Assembly: GCA_029260055.1 (NCBI GenBank)
Contig: JAJDDX010000298.1
Location: 1-58,859 of the forward strand
Origin: Phycisphaerae bacterium
Lineage (GTDB): Bacteria; Planctomycetota; Phycisphaerae; UBA1845
Direction: 5' to 3'
DNA length: 58,859 nt
Made by a program: the position numbers and the translations under genes. Shown here piece by piece: positions 3,598 through 43,860 of the stretch (the stretch's first letter is position 1; each line of letters starts with the position of its first letter). A model generated the notes under the pieces. The model was given only the letters and a program-made list of their open reading frames with translations, was not told where the DNA came from and did no database searches.

Positions 3598-4084
3598 CCC
3601 GGCGCTGCGTCGCCGTCACTCCGAGCAGTCATCTGCGACGGACGATCGCGTAGCAAGGGCTTCTCACTTACCCTATCAACCCGTCGGTTGGTAATCGCAA
3701 CAGGGTTAGACCCTATCGCTTTCAGAAACAGCGACCACGCACTCAGATCGCAACAGTGCAAAGACGAGAAACTCATCGTCTGCGGAATTTCCCGCCAACT
3801 TTTTCATTGTATCGCGAACTGACAGTCGCTAGGTTATAAGACGGTCGCAACGCACGGGGCGACCGGGCAAGAGCGTCACTCCTGTCCTGACCAAGAGTCA
3901 TTATCGATCACGTTCGTTTGCTCGCCGTGGGGCGGTCGCGCCGGCTCCTCACCGTTCGGGCCCGTGGTGCGCGTCTAGTCATCAATCTGACGGAGAATCT
4001 CGTTTGCCTTGGTGGCGGAAATGTCGCTTCGCAGTCGCAAGACATGCGCAGTGTGGAATGTCTGTTTCAGGGAGAGATCAGATC
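3598..4084. other. Intergenic region without recognised gene
   Basis: About 490 bp between the terminator and the protease start. It is less GC-rich than its surroundings in 3650-3840. No RNA family, tRNA or convincing short gene is seen. It presumably holds the protease promoter and a leader; a Shine-Dalgarno-like GGAGAG lies at 4071-4076. Confidence 0.5.
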
Positions 4085-29788: not shown

Positions 29789-29861
29789 TGCGGGGTAGAG
29801 CAGTTGGCAGCTCGTCGGGCTCATAACCCGGAGGTCGCAGGTTCGAGTCCTGCCCCCGCTA
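29789..29861 (+). tRNA. Initiator tRNA-Met (anticodon CAT)
   Basis: Cloverleaf with anticodon loop CTCATAA on a stem ending in three G-C pairs (GGG...CCC), the initiator hallmark. The first base pair is mismatched (T1/T72), also an initiator trait. T-arm GCAGGTTCGAGTCCTGC, discriminator A, no encoded CCA. The D-loop is short. A hairpin terminator follows 15 bp later. Confidence 0.9.
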
Positions 29862-29887
29862 TAAGGACCAGGAGATAACCTCGATGT
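29852..29887 (+). repeat. Direct repeat copy 1 (tRNA 3' end and flank)
   Basis: 36 bp starting GCCCCCGCTATAAGG, spanning the last 10 bases of the initiator tRNA, its 3' flank and the left arm of its terminator. An identical copy lies at 30065-30100. Such repeats are expected at attachment sites. Confidence 0.85.
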
Positions 29888-29901
29888 AAGTCGAGGTTTT
29901 T
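29877..29901 (+). terminator. Terminator of the initiator tRNA gene
   Basis: AACCTCGA (29877-29884) pairs with TCGAGGTT (29891-29898) around a 6-nt loop, followed by a T run to 29901. Confidence 0.9.
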
Positions 29902-29924
29902 CATGCGCTTAGATCGTGCCTGCT

Positions 29925-30046
29925 CCGGCTCATAACGGGTGTCTTTCAGCGCGCTTCGAACCCACGACCACCGCGCTATGAACCCAAAAAGCAGCCCGTT
30001 ATGAACCCGCGACTGACAGGATCGTCACCGGGCTCATAACGTGGGG
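29925..30046. repeat. Cluster of GGGYTCATAAC motifs (anticodon-arm mimic)
   Basis: Variants of the tRNA anticodon-arm sequence GGGCTCATAACCC recur at 29927-29938 (+), 29975-29985 (- strand, GGGTTCATAGC), 29995-30008 (- strand, GGGTTCATAACGGG) and 30030-30041 (+). Another copy, GGGTTCATAACGACCC, lies before the recombinase gene at 32298. They may be binding or crossover sites of the recombinase. Confidence 0.6.
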
Positions 30047-30100
30047 GTCGTAGGCTCGAAGACAGCCCCCGCTATAAGGACCAGGAGATAACCTCGATGT
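30027..30100 (+). repeat. Degenerate copy of the initiator tRNA 3' half plus perfect 36-bp flank
   Basis: CCGGGCTCATAAC and the following anticodon, variable and T-arm region match the tRNA gene with scattered changes. From 30065 the match is perfect for 36 bp and stops at CTCGATGT, inside the terminator loop, so the right arm of the terminator is absent. No 5' half is present, so this is not a tRNA gene. Offset from the parent is 213 bp. Confidence 0.8.
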
Positions 30101-30292
30101 TCTGCGTCGTTCTCCTCTGTATCCGTGTGCGGGCATCCAGTCCCGCTTCATCATCGTCCATATTACCCGGACGTGTAGCGGCTGCCAAACCGAACGACGC
30201 CGGGATGATAACGACCCCAGCGGTGCCGCACATCTGACAGCGTTTGACCGCCTGACCCGACCGCGTTCGATCCAGCCTGACCCGCCGAGAAG

Positions 30293-30308
30293 CCCCGTGT
30301 TCACGGGG
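30293..30308 (-). terminator. Perfect hairpin at the recombinase stop codon
   Basis: CCCCGTG/CACGGGG with a 2-nt loop overlaps the stop codon of the recombinase gene. No T-run follows on the minus strand, so terminator function is tentative. Confidence 0.4.
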
Positions 30309-32277
30309 GTCTTTCCCTTGAAGTTGTTACGGTAGGTAATGTCAACTGTGTGCGCTGGGTGCCCCGATTGCGGGAGGCTCCGGCGGTGTCGGCTGATTCC
30401 AGGGATAGGTCGATCTGCCGGATCGCCCCGAGATTGCTGCAGGGAACCACGCGAACCGCAGCTTGGGCTTGCCGCGCGGTTCCGTCGATGTGGACCCGCT
30501 GGATGCACTGGCGGAGGGCAACGAGCTTCTCCTGAGGCATGCCCTCGTGGAACGTGTGTTCCAGACCGGCGAGGAACTTCATTGCGTTGCCCGTGACCGC
30601 CTTGATCTCCTCCTGCGACACGGCCAAATGATCAAGCTCCTCAAGCCGTGATTCCAGCTGACGCCGCTGCTCGGTCAGTTCCTTCAAACGGTCGTCAACG
30701 TGTTCGCGGTTGGCCGGCGTGATGTTATCGAGCAGGTTGTTGATGATACCGGTGATGCGGTTCCGTTCCGCCTCCGCTCGGGCGTGAGCGGCTTCGTGGT
30801 GCTCACCCTCCGTTCCGATCTGCTCCTTCACGGCCTCGGAAAGCTCCCGTCGGCCTCCCTTGGCGAGGTACGGTGCGTAGAATTCGAGCACCGCGTTGAC
30901 GACCGCACCTTCGAGTTCATCCTGCGGGATCGGATTCATCTTGCAGACCGCGTTGCCCTTCGTGATGTGTCCGCCGCAGCCGTAGGACCGGCTGATTACC
31001 TTGCTGCCGTCCGCGCGCCGCTTGCCTTTGTGTCGTGTGACACCCTGATACCGCGACCCGCATTTCGCACACGTCAGCAAGCCCGAGAGGATGAATCGGC
31101 TGCGCTGCCCCTGCCAAGTCCGGCCGTGCGTCTTGAGGCGTGGGTCGCTGCCTCGTTGCTCAATCGAACTGATCCGGCTCTCACGACGCTCCCGAGCCTG
31201 TTCAAACACCCGCCGGCTGATCAGCGCGGGATGTGCGTCCCGGACGACGATCCAATCCGATTCATCGTTGGGCACCAGCCGGGCACCGTGTGCGCTCTCA
31301 CGTTCCACCGCACGGCCGTCCTGGATCCGATGGAACCGCGCGTCGGTCCGACGGTTCCAAACGAGGTCGCCCGCATACGCCGGGTTGACCAGGATCGCGC
31401 GGATGGTCGTGTCCGTCCATTGGCCGCTGTAGATGTGCGACCAAGCCGGTCCGCGCGGCGTCGGGATCTCATCCACATTCAGCGACTCAGCCACCGATTT
31501 GAAGCCCTTTCCCTGTTCGGTGTACATGCGAAAGATCAACTTGATGGCCTGCACGCGATCCGGTGAACTCGGCACCAGCTTGGCACGATCGCGTTTCGAG
31601 ATGTTCAGGGATTCGCCACGGGCCAGCGTCCGGGTGAGGTTGCTCTTCTCGTCGAGGATCCGCTTGGTGCCGTCGGGCATGTAGCGAACGATGAGGAGGA
31701 ACTCGCCGTCGATCGTCTCGTAGCGCAGGTCGTAGCCGTGCGGCGGGACGCCCCCCATCCACCAGCCCCGCGCTGCCCCATCTCCGTTGCCTCCGTTCCG
31801 ATCTTCAAGTTTGGACAGCAATCCTCGGATCGTGACCTTCGACAGATCTTTCGACTCCTGCCGCGCCTGCCACTGCTTGACGGGCCGAAGGAGATCGTCG
31901 GTGCTGTCACCGTTGAAGTTCTCGCTGACGTAGCAAACCTCCACGCCGTGCGTACGCAGAACGTGGCGGTAGTAGCCGGCTTCATCGTTGTCGACCCGGC
32001 CGAACCGCTTGACATCGTAGACGACAATTAGATCGAACCTGCGCGACGGGCTCTGGGCGTCCTGGATCATTTGCTGGAACGCCCGCCGGCCCACCGCGCT
32101 CGTGCCGCTGATCGCGTCGTCGACGTAGTGGCGCGTGAGCCGCAGACCGTGCTCGGTGACGTACCCCTCGATCGCTTTCTTTTGGTCCGGGATTGACTGC
32201 TCCTGCCGGTCTGTCGAGCGCCGGACGTACCCCACCGCCCGGTGCTTGCGAGGCGTTTTTTGGGGTCGTTGTGTCAT
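30301..32277 (-). CDS. Large serine recombinase (site-specific integrase/resolvase family)
   Basis: 658 residues. The N-terminal resolvase domain carries the nucleophile S21 in GYVRRSTDRQ, then IVVYDVKRFGR and DDAISGTS. Next come a recombinase domain (GGVPPHGYDL, IRAILVNPAYAGDLVWNR) and a zinc ribbon (SGLLTCAKCGSRYQG ... YGCGGH ... CKMNP). A long coiled coil follows (about residues 490-570), as in integrases where it controls direction. Family members insert or excise circular DNA between short att sites. AGGAGG lies 7 bp before the ATG and can be buried in a leader hairpin. It is the last gene of the island, next to tRNA-derived repeats. Confidence 0.93.
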   Translation of the reverse strand: MTQRPQKTPRKHRAVGYVRRSTDRQEQSIPDQKKAIEGYVTEHGLRLTRHYVDDAISGTSAVGRRAFQQMIQDAQSPSRRFDLIVVYDVKRFGRVDNDEAGYYRHVLRTHGVEVCYVSENFNGDSTDDLLRPVKQWQARQESKDLSKVTIRGLLSKLEDRNGGNGDGAARGWWMGGVPPHGYDLRYETIDGEFLLIVRYMPDGTKRILDEKSNLTRTLARGESLNISKRDRAKLVPSSPDRVQAIKLIFRMYTEQGKGFKSVAESLNVDEIPTPRGPAWSHIYSGQWTDTTIRAILVNPAYAGDLVWNRRTDARFHRIQDGRAVERESAHGARLVPNDESDWIVVRDAHPALISRRVFEQARERRESRISSIEQRGSDPRLKTHGRTWQGQRSRFILSGLLTCAKCGSRYQGVTRHKGKRRADGSKVISRSYGCGGHITKGNAVCKMNPIPQDELEGAVVNAVLEFYAPYLAKGGRRELSEAVKEQIGTEGEHHEAAHARAEAERNRITGIINNLLDNITPANREHVDDRLKELTEQRRQLESRLEELDHLAVSQEEIKAVTGNAMKFLAGLEHTFHEGMPQEKLVALRQCIQRVHIDGTARQAQAAVRVVPCSNLGAIRQIDLSLESADTAGASRNRGTQRTQLTLPTVTTSRERPP

Positions 32278-32282
32278 GTCGT

Positions 32283-32324
32283 GGCCTCCTATTGCTTGGG
32301 TTCATAACGACCCCATAGGAGGCC
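32283..32324 (-). promoter_or_regulatory. Leader hairpin hiding the recombinase ribosome site, with att-like loop
   Basis: Perfect 10-bp inverted repeat: GGCCTCCTAT (32283-32292) and ATAGGAGGCC (32315-32324). In the minus-strand mRNA the 3' arm contains the Shine-Dalgarno AGGAGG, 7 nt before the recombinase ATG. The 22-nt centre holds the TTCATAAC motif shared with the tRNA-side cluster, and inner GGGT/ACCC pairs. It could be a translational switch, an operator, a crossover site, or several of these. Confidence 0.65.
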
Positions 32325-32479
32325 CATAGCGCGCGCTACAGCAAGGCGAATTCGGCCAGATTATCGACTATTCCGCGCAATCGCGCTGGTCTGTCAGGCG
32401 TCGCCGGACGGCGATTGCGCCCGCTTCATGGCACCCCGGCACGGTCGGAGCGCGACGGCTGGCGCCGCCGCACCCCCGG

Positions 32480-34078
32480 TCAATTGAATCTGCGGATGAA
32501 GACGGGGTGCCCAACCTGGACCTCGATGAATTGGTGCGATGCCACGACGGCCATTTCCAGCGCGTCCGGCCCGTCATCGTGAGCGGCGAGCGGGAACTGG
32601 CGAAGCTGATCGAGCAGCAGCCGATGCCGCCTGTTCAGCTTGATCTGGCCCTGCGTTACGGCGGGCTCGAGGTTGGCGATGCGAGTCCGCTTGTTCGCGC
32701 GGTTGGTGATTGGATGCACACGGAACTGCAGGTTGGCCTCTTGGGCGCGCTGGCGCAGGCCGGTCACCATCATTTCCTGGAACTGATTCGCTTCCACTGC
32801 GAAGACCGTGATCGGATACATCCTGGCGAGCTCGAGGATGCGCACGATGGCCTGGTCGGGCGTTCGCCGCGCGATGTCGGCTGCGATCACGTGCTTCGTC
32901 TGAGAACCGTTGACTTGATACAGAAGCACGATGGCCGTGAAGTCGCCGCGCCCCATTCCACGCCCGAGGCTCGGGTCGCACGCGCCGAAGAAGCAGCCAT
33001 CACGGCCGACCGCGTCCCGCAGAGCCTCCACATCGTCGTACTCGTCGTCCCAGAAGTGGAAGTTCTCTTGGCTGAAGACACAGACCTCAGGATGGACGGG
33101 CTCGTTTTGTTTTTCGGCCTGGAAGCTGGCCCTGCCCTCTCGTTCGCGCATCACCATCAGCGTGTAGTAGTCCTCACGCTCGGGCCAGAGCACGCGCGTG
33201 CCGGTGAGCATGTCATCGTGGTTGGCTTCGAAGAACTGCTCTGCCGCCTCCGGGCCAGTCCGCCCCTCGAAGTCCTCGCGGGTGCGGAAGATCGCCGCCC
33301 AGGCCTCCCAGAGATCGGGGTGATCGCTGAACCGCTCGACAGCCTTGAAAGCCAAACCGGTCCAGCCGCGGCGGTCGTGCGGATTGACGCGATTCGCAAG
33401 AAGCGAGTCGTGATGAAGGATGGTGCCGACAACGATCACATTGGTTCCCGGATGGCCCCCGTGAAGCAGCGTGCCGGTGAACCAGTCGTGCAGCTTCTGC
33501 CGCTGCTCCTCGGAGATCACGCGTTCGGGATCCTCGATGTCATCGGCGACGATCAGGCCGGGCCGCTCGCTGACGTTCTTGGCGCCACGCACGCCCTGCC
33601 CCTCACCGTAGGCGGCAATCATCGCTCGGTTGGGCAGTGAGATCCGATCCTTGCGCCAGGGCTTGGGCCTGCGCGGTGCATGTTCGGGGCTGCAGATCTC
33701 GGGGAAGTCTTCAAGCAGCAGCGGGTTCTTCTGCAGCTCGTCCTTGATTGTATGTAGCAACAGTCCCGCCTGATCCTGCGTCGCGGAGACGAGCAGGACG
33801 AACTTTTCCTTCTCGTACAGCACGCACCAAAGGACGAATGCAAGGCTCACGATGGTGCTCTTAGCGTGATCGCGAGGAGCGGCGATGGCCAGCCGCCCGG
33901 CACGCTTTTCGATCAGTTCCGTCAGGGCGACGAAGAGCTCGTCGTGCATTCGCGAGAACGGCAGCGCGCAGTGGCCCGACAGGTAGATCTTCGCGAACAT
34001 CGCCGGTGATTTCGCGCCGGACGCCCGTCGCATCCGCCGGAGTTCCGCGTTCACTGGAGCAAGGTAGCTATTCATCAT
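32480..34078 (-). CDS. Phage terminase large subunit
   Basis: 532 residues. ATP-driven DNA packaging motor with a C-terminal nuclease. Walker A variant APRDHAKST (residues 67-75), Walker B-like GLIVADDIED, coupling motif VVGTILHHDS. In the RNase H-like nuclease: FGACDPSLG, FAVEANQFQ and HDDGPDALE with the metal-binding acidic residues. The ATG at 34078 (or the next one at 34075) overlaps the upstream gene's end by 11 bp; the long N-terminal extension of the open frame is the upstream gene read in another frame. A portal gene would normally follow; here there is a 200-bp gap and then the recombinase. Confidence 0.92.
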   Translation of the reverse strand: MMNSYLAPVNAELRRMRRASGAKSPAMFAKIYLSGHCALPFSRMHDELFVALTELIEKRAGRLAIAAPRDHAKSTIVSLAFVLWCVLYEKEKFVLLVSATQDQAGLLLHTIKDELQKNPLLLEDFPEICSPEHAPRRPKPWRKDRISLPNRAMIAAYGEGQGVRGAKNVSERPGLIVADDIEDPERVISEEQRQKLHDWFTGTLLHGGHPGTNVIVVGTILHHDSLLANRVNPHDRRGWTGLAFKAVERFSDHPDLWEAWAAIFRTREDFEGRTGPEAAEQFFEANHDDMLTGTRVLWPEREDYYTLMVMREREGRASFQAEKQNEPVHPEVCVFSQENFHFWDDEYDDVEALRDAVGRDGCFFGACDPSLGRGMGRGDFTAIVLLYQVNGSQTKHVIAADIARRTPDQAIVRILELARMYPITVFAVEANQFQEMMVTGLRQRAQEANLQFRVHPITNRANKRTRIANLEPAVTQGQIKLNRRHRLLLDQLRQFPLAAHDDGPDALEMAVVASHQFIEVQVGHPVFIRRFN

Positions 34079-34754
34079 CGTCACCCTTTTCATCTTCGCG
34101 TTCGACTCGTGCCGAAAGCTCGTCCACTCGGCTGGCCAAGCCAGCTTGTACGATCTGACTCTCCAGGACGGCCACATCTGGTGGCACCTCGCCGTCCGAG
34201 TCCTGGCAGATCTGTTTGATGCGCTGGACCTCAGCGTGCATGACCTGGAAGTCCGGCACTTCGCCGACATGGTGGGTCAGATCCGCCTCGACCTTCTGCG
34301 CAGCCGTCGGTAGGTAGCCGAGGCGTTGCAGCGACCGGATCAGATCGGTGTAGATCTGGAAGCATCGCTGCTCACCATCGATCCTCACCGCGGGTGAGGC
34401 CTTCTTGTCCCGACTGACCTTGCGAATGCGCTGGATTGACAGCTCCGCCTCGCCGATCAGCCGCCCCACCATCTCGCCGACAAGCTTCGGATCACGGACG
34501 ATGGCGTTGGATTCACGAATGGCCTTCTTGTCGCGTTCGATCGTGCGATCGGCGACCTTGAGCACTTGCGCCAACTCGGCAGTCGAGTAGCCATCGCCGA
34601 TCAGGAACGCCACGAGTTGGCGGCGATCCGATACCGAGATCGCCTTAGCCTCGACGGTGCCCAATTCGATCTTGCGCAGGAGAGCGAGTGTGCCAGTGTC
34701 GCCGTTGCCCGACTGAGCCAATTCTGACGAATCTGAGGAGGATTGCCGCGTCAT
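34068..34754 (-). CDS. HTH protein, probable terminase small subunit
   Basis: 228 residues from the ATG at 34754, which has GGAGGAGG upstream. A helix-turn-helix is visible (GYSTAELAQVLKVADRTIER), then a helical middle and an acidic C-terminus (EREDEKGDDDE). Position directly before, and overlapping, the large terminase gene argues for the DNA-recognition small subunit, but sequence alone only shows an HTH protein. Its start codon overlaps the methyltransferase stop as ATGA. Confidence 0.7.
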   Translation of the reverse strand: MTRQSSSDSSELAQSGNGDTGTLALLRKIELGTVEAKAISVSDRRQLVAFLIGDGYSTAELAQVLKVADRTIERDKKAIRESNAIVRDPKLVGEMVGRLIGEAELSIQRIRKVSRDKKASPAVRIDGEQRCFQIYTDLIRSLQRLGYLPTAAQKVEADLTHHVGEVPDFQVMHAEVQRIKQICQDSDGEVPPDVAVLESQIVQAGLASRVDELSARVEREDEKGDDDE

Positions 34755-38788: not shown

Positions 38789-39063
38789 TGGGCTCTCCCG
38801 AAGCCACGTTGTCGCCGAGACTGAAGGGGCCCCTGAATGCACCTCGCCTCGTTCTGGTCCCACGCATGCTTATCTCGGAGAGTGTACCGGACGCGGTTGC
38901 GGGCTGGAAGCCTCCCGCGTGTGGAAACGCGTCCTTGTTGAGTGCGGATGGCCAAGGCGTAAACGGACAACGTCGGCTCGCAGTTCGACGGTCGCTGTCG
39001 ACAAGAGTGAACTAGGAACTGCGTGGACCCGTGCGGTCGGTAAGATGCGTTGTGGATACCAGA

Positions 39064-39072
39064 TGGTATACT
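39064..39072 (+). promoter_or_regulatory. Possible extended -10 promoter of the STAND gene
   Basis: TGGTATACT is an extended -10 match, 135 bp before the STAND start; no good -35 is seen. The rest of the 419-bp divergent region (38789-39207) shows no gene. A promoter for the TIR gene must also lie there but is not evident. Confidence 0.35.
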
Positions 39073-39207
39073 GGACGCCCCGAGCCCGGCACAAGGACGC
39101 AACGGGGCGCGGGGCTGTCTCGCCCCACGTCAGGTCCGGCGTTAAGCTGCTTGGGGGACGCGTCAGGGACAGGTTGCGTTGCACCGCAAGAACACGGAGC
39201 CCGCGCC

Positions 39208-42200
39208 ATGGGAATGGAAATCGGCGGCCGCGCCTCGAAGCTCGGCGACACGTATGAGCGCCTCTGGGCTGTGCGTCATGCCCTCATGGTCATCGATGGC
39301 CGGTTCTCGTCGCTTCTTTGGGAGCCGATTGGCGAGGACGAGAATGGCGTTGACCTCTGGGTTACACGTTCCGACGGACGCAGGATCGCCCACCAGCTCA
39401 AGCGGCAGAATCGCAGCAAGGAATACTGGTCCATAGCGGATTTGGCTGAAGAGGGCGTACTGCAGTACGCACGCGGACAGCTTGAGCGAGACACTAGCGC
39501 GCGATACACATTCGTCTCGTCGTGCGGGGTTCGCCACCTGCGAGACTTTGCGGAACAGAGCGAACGCGCGAACGATGATCCGGCTGTCTTCTACCGCGAT
39601 ATTGTCTGCCAAAGTGAGGATGGGAAGGCAGAATTCGAGAGACTCATGCTTGCGTGGGAGTTCGATCCCGCACTCCCGACCGACGTTGCACGCGCATTCC
39701 AACTCCTTCAACGCACGGAGTTTCTTGTACAAGAGCGGTCAAAGTCGGAACGCGACCAGGTGGAGTTTAACGCCGGCCTCTTAATGGACGGTGCCCCAGC
39801 CGCCGCAGTCGCCGTGATCGGCGGCTTTCTTGACGCAAGTCTCGGCAAGGCCCTTCACGCCGATGAGCTTCGCAAGAAACTCAAACAAGAGGGCTTCCAG
39901 TTTCGCAATCTGGCTGGCGACCCAACATTGCCAGGTGCGATTGAACAGCTGCAATACCGCTTCGACACTGCAATCGCCGGTGAGCTGATCGCCGGGGCAC
40001 CGATATCACGACCGGAAACCGCCGAACTGGCCACGAAGCTCACAGGCGATAAGCCCGCACGGCTGATCTTCGTCCACGGGCAGCCCGGCTCCGGAAAGTC
40101 CGTCGTACTTCATCAGGCGTTCAAGGCACTTAGCGCTGATGGTGTCCCTTGCCTACCTATCCAGCTTCACGTTCGAAGACCCGACGGCGTCCCGGCTGTC
40201 TTCGGACGGTCGAAACTGGGCCTGCCAGCATCACCGGGGCTAAGCCTGCGAGGACTGGCCGGTGATCGTCACGCCGTAGTACTCCTTGACCAGTTGGACG
40301 CCCTTCGTTTGACCAGCAGCCATTCGCATGAAGCCTGGGAAGCGTGCGCCGCGCTGATTGATGAGGTATTGGCTGATCCCCGGACGACAGTCGTCGTAGC
40401 CTGTCGGACGTTCGACCTGCAGAATGACCCAAATATCGCGGCATGGAGGCGGCGCCTCCAAGACAAGCCGTCTAATCATGCTATTGAGTTAAAGGTCGGT
40501 GATCTCCCGGACGAGACGGTCGCAGACCTGCTCGACCAACACGCGACAAACTACGCATCCCTTCCGGACCGGCAGAGGAAGCTCTTGCGCCAGCCGGCAG
40601 CGCTGGCAATGTGGTGGAGGCTCGCGTCTGCTGGCCAACCTCCAGCCCAGTTCACGAACGCAACCCAACTAATGCGCGAGCTACTGACGCTCCGGCGGTT
40701 AGAAGCATCGCGCGACCACGGCGTGCCAGCGGAAGACCTGAATCATGTGGTGTCCGAGCTTGTCACGTTCATGGATTCGCATGGCCGCCTTGATGCCCCT
40801 GAGTCGTTGGTAGCCGATCGCGGTTCTGCCGTGAACGCCCTGTGCGCCACGGGTCTGGTCAAACGGGACGGATCAAGGCTGGTTTTCGCCCACCAGGGCT
40901 ACTTCGACCATCTCGTCGCCGAGTATGTGCTCCGCGAAGCGTTGCGAGGCAAACGTGACACAGCGCAGTGGCTGAAAGCGAATCAGTCGCTGTTTCGCCG
41001 AGATCAGCTCCGTCAACTTCTGACGCTATTGCGCGACACTGACCCAGCCCAGCACAGCACACTGATTCGCAGCGTGTTGCTTGATTCAGATGTCAGGTTT
41101 CATCTCAAGCACCTCGTTCTCGGGCTTCTCAGAGAAGCAGAACCGCCCTTGGACCACGAGGTCCAGCTCGTTGCAGAATTAGCCGAGAACGCGGACTGGT
41201 GGACGCACGTCCAGGGCGTAGTCCTGTGGTCTAAGGTCGCTTGGTTCGACGCCTTGCACATCTCCGGTCACCTAGCGGAGTGGCTCTCGAGTTGGACCGA
41301 TGACCAGACCGTACAAGCGCTGTTGAGTTCGTTCCGTCCGATCTCATCGCATCGGGGATCAGAGATCGACGAGCTGCTTGCCCCTTACTGGTCCGCAGAA
41401 GGGCCGTGGCCCGGTAGGCTCCAGGCGGTCTTCTGGGTCGATCCAGCCGATGATTCACCGAGGATGAGCGCATATCGACTTGAACGAATTCGCGCTGGTG
41501 AGTGGCAATTCGACGGCCTCTACCTCGACAGAATAGCGGAGCGATGCCCGACGCGTGTAGTCCCGCTACTGGCGGCTGTATCCGAAGCGTGGATCAGCCG
41601 AATCAGGCGGCACATGCGAGGGCAGAAAGAGCCGGAGACGCCTGGACTGAAACTACGAGACGATAGGCTCAACGCCAAAGTCGTCGCTGCCATTCGCAAT
41701 GATGCGGAATATGCCTGGCCCATTTTCGCTGGCATGCTGCGCTTGCTGAGCACGCTGCGAAAGCTCGCCAATCGCGGCAACCGCACGGCTGAAGATTTTG
41801 CCAACCGGGACTGGCAGCTCTCCCGTATACTTGACAGCGCTTGCGAGATCCTTGAGAGCCTCGTGACAGCGGCGGTTGAGGGACTAGCAGCAAGCAGACC
41901 CGAACGTATCGTTGGGCTGTTGGGCAGTCTAACCGCTCCGAAGACCCGCGGGCTCGAGCGAGCGATTATGAAGGGCCTTGCGTTCGGCGGTGACTCGTTG
42001 GCTGACGACTCCCTATCCTGGTTGTGTGCGCGACCATCCCGTTTTCGCCTTGGCGACGGGCACAACGAGACCAATTGGGAACCCGCCAGGGCGCTCATCG
42101 CTCGATTCTCTCCCCACTGTTCAACAACCGTGTTCCATCGCCTCGAAGAGGAAATCCTCGGGTATCATGACGCCTGGGAGCGCAAGAGCGTTGAGTGGCA

Positions 42201-43860
42201 ACTGGACAATCTGCGAGACAACCGGATTATCCCAAACGACTACGGGCGCGCTCAAAACGTCCTTTTGACGGCGCTACTCGCCAGCCGCACGTCCGAGCGA
42301 GCGAAGCTAGTCGCTTCAGCGTGGCGGGCGAAGTTCGGCGACCCCGCGAATGAAGACCCTGCCCTCCGCACGGCAGTCGGTGGCAGGGTGGTTTCTCCAA
42401 TCCCCCCCGACAAGCTGACGTTTGTAAGTGATCGTGAGTGGCTTCGAATCATCAAGAGCAAGTGGCCGGAGCGCGAGGCCCGTCGCTGGCGAGAACACGG
42501 TTCCGGCCTGGTCGGCGAAGCCTCCGTTCGCCACTTTTCCGAGGCTCTCGGAGACGCAACCAAACGTAGCCCCCAGAGGTTTACTGCGCTAGCACTCAAG
42601 ATTCCTCACGACTCAGATCCGAGATATGCCGCCTCGATTGTGCAGGCGCTGACCGATTCAGGCAGGGATGCATCTCTTGCGCCGGTTACGACGGAGACGC
42701 TTGAGGCCATCATCGGACATTTCGGCGAGTGCAACGAAGAAGGCTACGTGATGGCAGTCTGTCGCCTAATCGAATCGCGCCGTGAGACTCGCTGGTCCGA
42801 TGATGTGGTCGAGCGACTCCTGAGCTATGTGGACCACCCTGAGCCAGCACCGGGTGAATTCACTGTACATGCGGGAGCGGGGACCGATGAAGAAGCGAAG
42901 CCCGACGTCGGCGGGACCGCGCTGAATTGTGTTCGGGGCGCCGTTGCCAGCGCACTCACGCAGCTACTGTGGGTGAGGCCCGACGCACTGGACAGAATCG
43001 TTTCGGGAGTTGACCGTCTTCTAGCTGACTCACATCCCTCTGTTCGGTATGAAGCACTCGGTGCGTGTCTGCCTCTGCTGAATCACGACAAAGACCTGGC
43101 AGTTCGGATGGCGCTAGCCGCCTGCGATCACGAGGACGACCGGGTGCTAGAGAGCCGGTGGCTGAACAGGCTGATCCAATACGCACGATCGACGCACCTT
43201 GATAACCTCGCTCCGCTTATCCAGCGTATGGCAGGATCAACAATAGACGATGTCGCCGAATCCGGGTCGGCATGGGCCTGCGTATGTTGGCTCGACGACC
43301 AGCGGTTTGCCGATCTTGTTGCGGAGTGTCGCGCGGGTTCCAAAGCGCAGCGTCTCGGAGTCACACTTGCCGCGAGCGATTACCTTGCCAACGGCCGCGC
43401 GGTTGATCTTGCCTCCCAAGTCCTGCTTGATTCGTTTGACGACCAGGACCGAGATGTTCGGGTGCGAGCAGCGAGCGTGTTCAGAACTACGGACGTGTTC
43501 GCGGCCGACTCGACCGCCCGGGTTGCGGCCGGGTTCGTTGCATCCGGGGCGTTTCTCCATGACCCAGGCGATCTTCTGCACCCGCTGACGGAGTACGCTG
43601 GCGAACTCGCCCGTTATTCCGACGTCGTACTCAAGGCAGCAGACGTCATGGCTGGCCCGCTTGCTGAGCAGACCCGTGATCTGCGCGAACGGAACGCATT
43701 CGCAGGGAATGAACTGTCAACGCTGTTGATCCGGGTCTACGAACTCGCATACGGCTCCCAAGCCCAAACGCTGCAAGAGCAGTGTCTCGATCGATGGGAC
43801 AAGATGCTCCAGGCTCGCGTCGGGATGACCGAAGAACACCTTCGGCAGCTCGACGACTGA
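39208..43860 (+). CDS. Nuclease-STAND ATPase (Avs-like antiviral protein, candidate)
   Basis: 1550 residues from the ATG at 39208 (ACGGAG 8 bp upstream). The N-terminus (1 to about 180) has D49 in NGVDLWV and Q63-L-K65 in AHQLKRQ, the spacing of a PD-(D/E)xK nuclease core like Cap4/DUF4297. The ATPase follows: Walker A GQPGSGKS (291-298), Walker B VVLLDQLDAL (D361), VVVACRTFDLQ as sensor region. A winged-helix-like part comes next and then about 900 residues of helical, HEAT-like repeats (SVRYEALGACLPLLN; DVRVRAASVFR). Size, order and the effector fit Avs STAND proteins, which bind phage proteins and then oligomerise and cut DNA. Assignment is by architecture only. The neighbour is a divergent TIR gene. 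Confidence 0.85.
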   Translation: MGMEIGGRASKLGDTYERLWAVRHALMVIDGRFSSLLWEPIGEDENGVDLWVTRSDGRRIAHQLKRQNRSKEYWSIADLAEEGVLQYARGQLERDTSARYTFVSSCGVRHLRDFAEQSERANDDPAVFYRDIVCQSEDGKAEFERLMLAWEFDPALPTDVARAFQLLQRTEFLVQERSKSERDQVEFNAGLLMDGAPAAAVAVIGGFLDASLGKALHADELRKKLKQEGFQFRNLAGDPTLPGAIEQLQYRFDTAIAGELIAGAPISRPETAELATKLTGDKPARLIFVHGQPGSGKSVVLHQAFKALSADGVPCLPIQLHVRRPDGVPAVFGRSKLGLPASPGLSLRGLAGDRHAVVLLDQLDALRLTSSHSHEAWEACAALIDEVLADPRTTVVVACRTFDLQNDPNIAAWRRRLQDKPSNHAIELKVGDLPDETVADLLDQHATNYASLPDRQRKLLRQPAALAMWWRLASAGQPPAQFTNATQLMRELLTLRRLEASRDHGVPAEDLNHVVSELVTFMDSHGRLDAPESLVADRGSAVNALCATGLVKRDGSRLVFAHQGYFDHLVAEYVLREALRGKRDTAQWLKANQSLFRRDQLRQLLTLLRDTDPAQHSTLIRSVLLDSDVRFHLKHLVLGLLREAEPPLDHEVQLVAELAENADWWTHVQGVVLWSKVAWFDALHISGHLAEWLSSWTDDQTVQALLSSFRPISSHRGSEIDELLAPYWSAEGPWPGRLQAVFWVDPADDSPRMSAYRLERIRAGEWQFDGLYLDRIAERCPTRVVPLLAAVSEAWISRIRRHMRGQKEPETPGLKLRDDRLNAKVVAAIRNDAEYAWPIFAGMLRLLSTLRKLANRGNRTAEDFANRDWQLSRILDSACEILESLVTAAVEGLAASRPERIVGLLGSLTAPKTRGLERAIMKGLAFGGDSLADDSLSWLCARPSRFRLGDGHNETNWEPARALIARFSPHCSTTVFHRLEEEILGYHDAWERKSVEWQLDNLRDNRIIPNDYGRAQNVLLTALLASRTSERAKLVASAWRAKFGDPANEDPALRTAVGGRVVSPIPPDKLTFVSDREWLRIIKSKWPEREARRWREHGSGLVGEASVRHFSEALGDATKRSPQRFTALALKIPHDSDPRYAASIVQALTDSGRDASLAPVTTETLEAIIGHFGECNEEGYVMAVCRLIESRRETRWSDDVVERLLSYVDHPEPAPGEFTVHAGAGTDEEAKPDVGGTALNCVRGAVASALTQLLWVRPDALDRIVSGVDRLLADSHPSVRYEALGACLPLLNHDKDLAVRMALAACDHEDDRVLESRWLNRLIQYARSTHLDNLAPLIQRMAGSTIDDVAESGSAWACVCWLDDQRFADLVAECRAGSKAQRLGVTLAASDYLANGRAVDLASQVLLDSFDDQDRDVRVRAASVFRTTDVFAADSTARVAAGFVASGAFLHDPGDLLHPLTEYAGELARYSDVVLKAADVMAGPLAEQTRDLRERNAFAGNELSTLLIRVYELAYGSQAQTLQEQCLDRWDKMLQARVGMTEEHLRQLDD

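Follow-up and report, generated by a model that had tools for sequence, protein, structure and literature searches.

The window, by which we mean the whole stretch of 58,859 nucleotides that was analysed, comprises the entire contig C221 of a 7.63-Mb genome in 500 contigs. The genes of concern are a recombinase gene (int), the terminase gene on its 5' side and a tRNA gene on its 3' side:

29789-29861, + strand: tRNA-Met (CAT), detected with ARAGORN, convergent with int and its putative integration target
30301-32277, - strand: int, encoding a large serine recombinase (LSR) of 658 residues, assigned from its domains and a PHROG match
32480-34270, - strand: terL, terminase large subunit, 5' of int on the same strand (PHROG 38, 2.7e-94)

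The Int protein, in which the Pfam domains Resolvase (3.4e-21), Recombinase (2.1e-23) and Zn ribbon (2.1e-14) follow in that order and which matches the PHROG 95 integrase at 1.1e-87, is by its domain content a large serine recombinase with predicted catalytic activity. Of 44 named contigs that encode relatives of this LSR, 26 have planctomycete names, two anammox records included. A ParB-methyltransferase gene and terL are both upstream of int on the int strand, and the terL region is a possible source of read-through RNA into int. Close to the phage genes, 37505-38863 encodes a 452-residue protein with a C-terminal TIR domain; the 1609-residue open frame at 39031-43860 had zero PHROG matches. 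No tyrosine integrase was found on the window contig; 26 matches lie elsewhere in the same genome.

A tRNA gene within 800 bp 3' of the int match was found at 17 of 54 LSR loci, which are related to one another and so not independent, and was convergent with int at all 17 (Met 8, including the window; Glu 5; Pro 3; Asn 1). Upstream of int, a tRNA gene was found at 1 of 55 loci. The LSRs counted were 25-100% identical to that of the window; loci were left out when the match stopped short of query residue 520, the sequence was a duplicate or the flank was shorter than 300 bases. Passages from two sources (2014 and 2022) hold that serine integrases are not known to use, or do not use, tRNA genes, and no report to the contrary was found in the portions covered of the literature searched, which included PMC10654092, PMC12884075, PMC5704250, PMC4701971 and PMC8637289. 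Use of the same sites by other elements could account for part of the association between LSR and tRNA genes; such co-use of tRNA-Met is possible because a tyrosine-integrase island occupies the same tRNA-Met in another genome, G034.

Immediately 5' of the int coding sequence lies a perfect inverted repeat; its parts and the elements around it are:

32339-32344, - strand: -35-like TTGCTG, recognized in an alignment of related LSR loci, where relatives often have CTTGMTAT
32324-32315, - strand: 5' arm, GGCCTCCTAT, with TCCTAT (32315-32320) at the -10 position
32314-32293, - strand: 22-nt loop, GGGGTCGTTATGAACCCAAGCA
32298-32309, - strand: loop motif CGTTATGAACCC (plus strand GGGTTCATAACG), the proposed operator, 12/12 to CGYTAYGAACCC
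32292-32283, - strand: 3' arm, ATAGGAGGCC, which contains the Shine-Dalgarno sequence (SD)
32290-32285, - strand: SD AGGAGG, 7 nt (CCACGAC) 5' of the int ATG at 32277-32275
32261-32272, + strand: TGGGGTCGTTGT, within the first int codons, an inverted copy of TGGGGTCGTTAT at 32304-32315(-)

The original prediction had described perfect 10-bp arms, AGGAGG 7 nt before the recombinase ATG and a 22-nt loop holding GGGTTCATAACG on the plus strand, all of which the sequence bears out; the arms (32283-32292 and 32315-32324) pair at 10 of 10 positions, and the next pair outward is a T-C mismatch. It had also stated that the loop motif is repeated at the tRNA end, as is the case: GGGTTCATAACG occurs exactly at 32298-32309(+) and 29997-30008(-), and with one mismatch at 29974-29985(-) and 30030-30041(+). 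These four matches at up to one mismatch fall within a span of less than 2.4 kb, against 0.14 expected. Perfect 10-bp inverted repeats with a loop of up to 30 were found as six pairs at four places in the window. A 10-bp repeat by itself is unremarkable because that count lies within the range of 0-10 (mean 3.5) given by 20 simulations of the window with an order-1 Markov model. What is remarkable about this hairpin is its placement on the SD and the repeated word in its loop.

The upstream arm coincides with part of the predicted int promoter. In the window, this consists of TTGCTG (32344-32339) and TCCTAT (32320-32315), with one spacer base more than in relatives, and TCCTAT forms the inner portion of the upstream arm. 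The layout is conserved among related LSR loci, with a TTG word that in 24 of 27 loci precedes the start codon by 55-72 bases and in the other 3 by 79-88 bases. Depending on the test, sets of 27, 21 or 23 loci were used, in which the -35 word and start codon had been chosen manually; 31 curated loci, a subset of the LSR loci, were used for the promoter layout and for counts of the motif in promoters. Positions carrying at least 1 bit in the 21-locus alignment (window included) were the C before TTG, T at 4 and 6, GCC at 21-23 and AT at 27-28; the alignment was anchored on the hand-picked TTG, so that conservation of the TTG itself is by choice. The pattern TTG[AC]TAT-N16-19-TAT[AG][GA], derived from the very loci on which it was scored, had 12 matches in 656,279 bases of these loci, of which 10 precede an LSR gene, versus 2 matches for the backward control in the same bases. 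This strict pattern had no match in the organism's own genome because the window reads TTGCTGT. A sigma-70 consensus scan of the window int promoter likewise gave no match, both hexamers being poor sigma-70 fits. Since the 5' arm sits on the conserved -10 position, mRNA from this promoter, if it fires as its layout suggests, should start inside the loop and would lack the 5' arm.

The loop recurs in a sister element. In genome G037 (locus L037), whose LSR is 71% identical to that of the window, the first 18 loop bases, GGGGTCGTTATGAACCCA, are the same; the arms keep GGCCTC and GGAGGCC, and their remaining bases differ, with an indel. At up to one mismatch, the loop 17-mer was found in 2 of 397 class genomes, both times at this LSR gene. 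Three viral-contig matches to the 17-mer were rejected as relatives because tblastn with seven window proteins matched none of them. GGGGTCGTT has a single occurrence in the L037 contig, in the promoter. Of the 31 curated int promoters, only those of the window and G037 contain CGYTAYGAACCC; the next best, L039, matches it at 10/12 in a different position, and that of G004 at only 8/12, despite the same array and a 67% identical LSR. Conservation of the proposed operator motif among related recombinases was thus not found, 29 of the 31 promoters being without it. Within the window, the motif is common to the int promoter and the presumed recombination region; G037 has its promoter copy on contig C768 and an array copy on contig C1499.

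Downstream of int, two 12-nt words that overlap in the loop region occur again, namely TGGGGTCGTTAT at 30208-30219 and CGTTATGAACCC at 29997-30008. The 12-nt word that the window shares between upstream and downstream regions was equalled by 1 of 24 swapped upstream/downstream pairs, and word sharing across int was at chance level for most of 25 loci. The idea that operator words common to the gene's own downstream region are a family trait was rejected on this ground, and one 12-nt word shared across int gives little support when taken alone. The loop site also differs at 2 of 12 bases from a word of the tRNA-Met anticodon arm, GGGCTCATAACC.

The features between tRNA-Met and int are:

29926-29937, - strand: inverted array copy CGTTATGAGCCG, 10/12
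29952 (11/12), 29974 (12/12) and 29997 (12/12), to 30008, + strand: three direct copies of the array motif, 22-23 bp apart
30029-30100, + strand: 72-nt repeat (88%) of the tRNA-Met 3' half and its flank, at a distance of 213 bp from the first copy
30030-30041, - strand: inverted array copy CGTTATGAGCCC, 11/12
30202-30219, - strand: site A, TGGGGTCGTTATCATCCC, 3' of int; its first 12 bases equal 32315-32304, within a 29-nt repeat at 76%

The tRNA-Met query was matched in 42 of 51 family genomes, and the stretch 3' of the gene (29862-30012) in 9 of 51. Beyond the tRNA-Met flank of relatives, CGYTAYGAACCC is present, often as direct copies 22-23 bp apart. At 11/12 or better, it lies behind tRNA-Met or a remnant of it in 7 of 10 stretches (L133, L134, L136, L137, L138, L140 and L141) and is absent from the array stretches of L135, L139 and L142; in L047 and L055, a 12/12 match is present in the interval from int to tRNA-Met or the tRNA-Met remnant. 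The motif matched 18 times in 4,862 array positions versus 5 times in 230,572 other positions, the array stretches (10 fetched loci plus the window) having been selected after the motif had been seen. Only two of the five non-array matches reach 12/12, one in the int promoter of the window and one in that of G037. Of the four exact copies in the organism's own 7.63-Mb genome, three are at the window locus; around the fourth, neither the window proteins nor the tRNA tested gave a significant match. Across the 51 family genomes, CGYTAYGAACCC is not enriched genome-wide, because its 113 copies compare with 102 for the backward control. What is striking about the motif is its placement, not its abundance.

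Several related arrangements were seen nearby or in relatives. The array stretch 29905-30045, like those of L133-L141, resembles in part the tRNA-Met 3' half in inverted orientation. In L055, GTCGCGGGTTCATAGCGGGTTGC (3955-3977) comes right after int and ahead of a tRNA-Met-like remnant, and agrees at 21 of 23 positions with the window site at 29997. A word resembling site A, GGGGTCGTCATC, lies between int and tRNA-Met in L047. In G004, too, the tRNA-Met 3' half and its flank are duplicated in similar form. G034 has an island of about 8 kb (L136:471-8494) that includes a tyrosine integrase (PF00589) and lies between tRNA-Met and a tRNA 3' half, and this 3' half beyond the island carries the flank and the array. 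The G034 island occupies the same tRNA-Met; displaced tRNA 3' halves can therefore have an origin other than the LSR, and the notion that they are necessarily LSR-made was rejected.

The explanation that we prefer, and to which we give slightly less than an even chance, is that the hairpin is the core promoter of int with an overlapping att-type operator in the loop, followed by the SD. The -10 element would lie within the upstream arm and the SD in the downstream arm, with the operator, acting as DNA, in the loop between them, where transcription is expected to start. The operator would be one more copy of the 12-bp CGYTAYGAACCC, whose arrays lie next to tRNA-Met in what is presumed to be the attachment region. 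Whatever protein recognizes the array would also bind the loop motif and repress int; this protein is probably the LSR, which is the simplest candidate (or a partner of it), and the motif shared with the tRNA-Met side suggests integrase control of the gene that encodes it. For the hairpin to form in RNA, transcription would have to begin further upstream. The original prediction had proposed that the element may serve as a recombination or operator site and may couple recombinase production to the state of that DNA site. A role as operator or as a site for the recombinase is plausible because the loop motif recurs beside tRNA-Met here and in several other genomes.

The alternative that survives best, though we think it rather unlikely, is that the hairpin guards int against read-through, forming only in mRNA that arrives from upstream (the terminase operon) and hiding its SD, while mRNA from int's own promoter is translated. 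The position of terL upstream of int on the same strand fits this, as does the predicted pairing of the SD. RNA 32324-32254, with both arms, gave -23.6 kcal/mol (z -3.5, equalled by 1 of 200 shuffles); RNA from 32312 onward, in which the 5' arm is absent, gave -8.8 kcal/mol (z -0.8, equalled by 49 of 200); and a longer RNA from 32360 gave z -0.9, with 31 of 200 shuffles as good. When the leaders of 23 loci were folded with real, shuffled and swapped upstream segments, the window SD was predicted to be hidden with the upstream arm and open without it (0.00 versus 0.67 unpaired; p = 0.010 by shuffle, 0.043 by swap). Values were also low for L038 (p = 0.015 and 0.087) and L071 (p = 0.095 and 0.087), and L037, with its GGCCTC/GGAGGCC core, still folds (0.17 unpaired with the arm versus 0.51 without; p = 0.16 and 0.35). 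Selection for SD hiding among relatives was nevertheless not found: the ten nearest loci, window included, were ambiguous (combined p = 0.03 by shuffle, 0.19 by swap), and all 23 loci gave combined p = 0.13 and 0.47. Duplex energies of the -10 and SD regions point the same way, own pairs barely beating swapped ones (mean quantile 0.45 over 27 loci, among which L043 was aligned with an error of two bases, corrected in the 21- and 23-locus sets). Because the folding of 23 loci and the duplexes of 27 loci are near chance, an RNA switch is not a family trait, and a family-wide SD-hiding hairpin was rejected.

Two further candidate structures were rejected. A short dyad at the transcription start is not family-wide (21 loci, mean p 0.59, only L038 below 0.05). 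In 32252-32324, TGGGGTCGTT stands in inverted orientation on either side of the SD and start codon (32261+ / 32304-), an arrangement that could bring the 5' end of the RNA (GGTCGTT) into pairing with the first int codons; the resulting fold was no better than in shuffles (49 of 200).

Accidental overlap, in which the SD and promoter arms happen to be complementary and the loop motif resembles the tRNA side without any function, seems to us distinctly unlikely. The 3.5 perfect 10-bp repeats expected per window and the 29 int promoters that lack the motif are what it would predict, but the identity of the loop with that of G037 and the rarity of the motif in the organism's own genome argue against it. 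Use of the hairpin as attP, or as a secondary recombination site where the LSR crosses over, is improbable, and with it the recombination part of the original proposal: the hairpin site does have words in common with site A and with the 29974 and 29997 copies, and the likeness to GGGCTCATAACC also speaks for such a site, but crossover there is unlikely because the phage gene terL follows on the far side, so that the hairpin is no element boundary or used element end, and 17 of 54 loci have a tRNA gene 3' of int as against 1 of 55 with one on the other side. A translational switch in ordinary int mRNA, as first proposed, is very improbable, since the fold, strong when both arms are transcribed, has its 5' arm on the conserved -10 position, which would place the start within the loop, the kind of start that the original prediction had itself named as refuting it, and neither it nor SD hiding is conserved among relatives.

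The operator reading can be set beside known systems. Like phiC31/Bxb1-type large serine integrases, the window protein has the Resolvase, Recombinase and zinc-ribbon order and a phage gene neighbourhood; in the portion of a Bxb1 paper covered, 'Int promoter' looks like a misprint for protomer. Unlike in the phiC31/Bxb1 type, a tRNA gene is found just 3' of int in 17 of 54 relatives here. Resolvases of the Tn3/gamma-delta type autoregulate at res, and here too a recombinase-type site overlaps the recombinase promoter; in contrast to res, the site is a candidate operator, and its motif is arrayed 2.3 kb off, beside a tRNA gene. The transposase genes of IS10 and IS50 are protected from impinging transcription by an SD-hiding hairpin. 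For IS200, protection of this kind by an SD-hiding structure is described in the part of PMC3196728 covered. The window shares with these elements an inverted repeat over the SD, here with the 5' arm upstream of the expected start; unlike theirs, its SD hairpin is not conserved among its relatives.

More broadly, and as a doubtful generalization, some phage-type serine integrases, many of which occur in Planctomycetota, may form a family that targets tRNA genes and reads a half-site mimicking a tRNA arm, with arrays of it at the attachment region, the half-site having been recruited in at least one lineage as the integrase's own operator, so that output would follow site occupancy. If the operator reading is true, the half-site at which this serine integrase recombines DNA would also be where it regulates itself, a compact feedback of natural origin.
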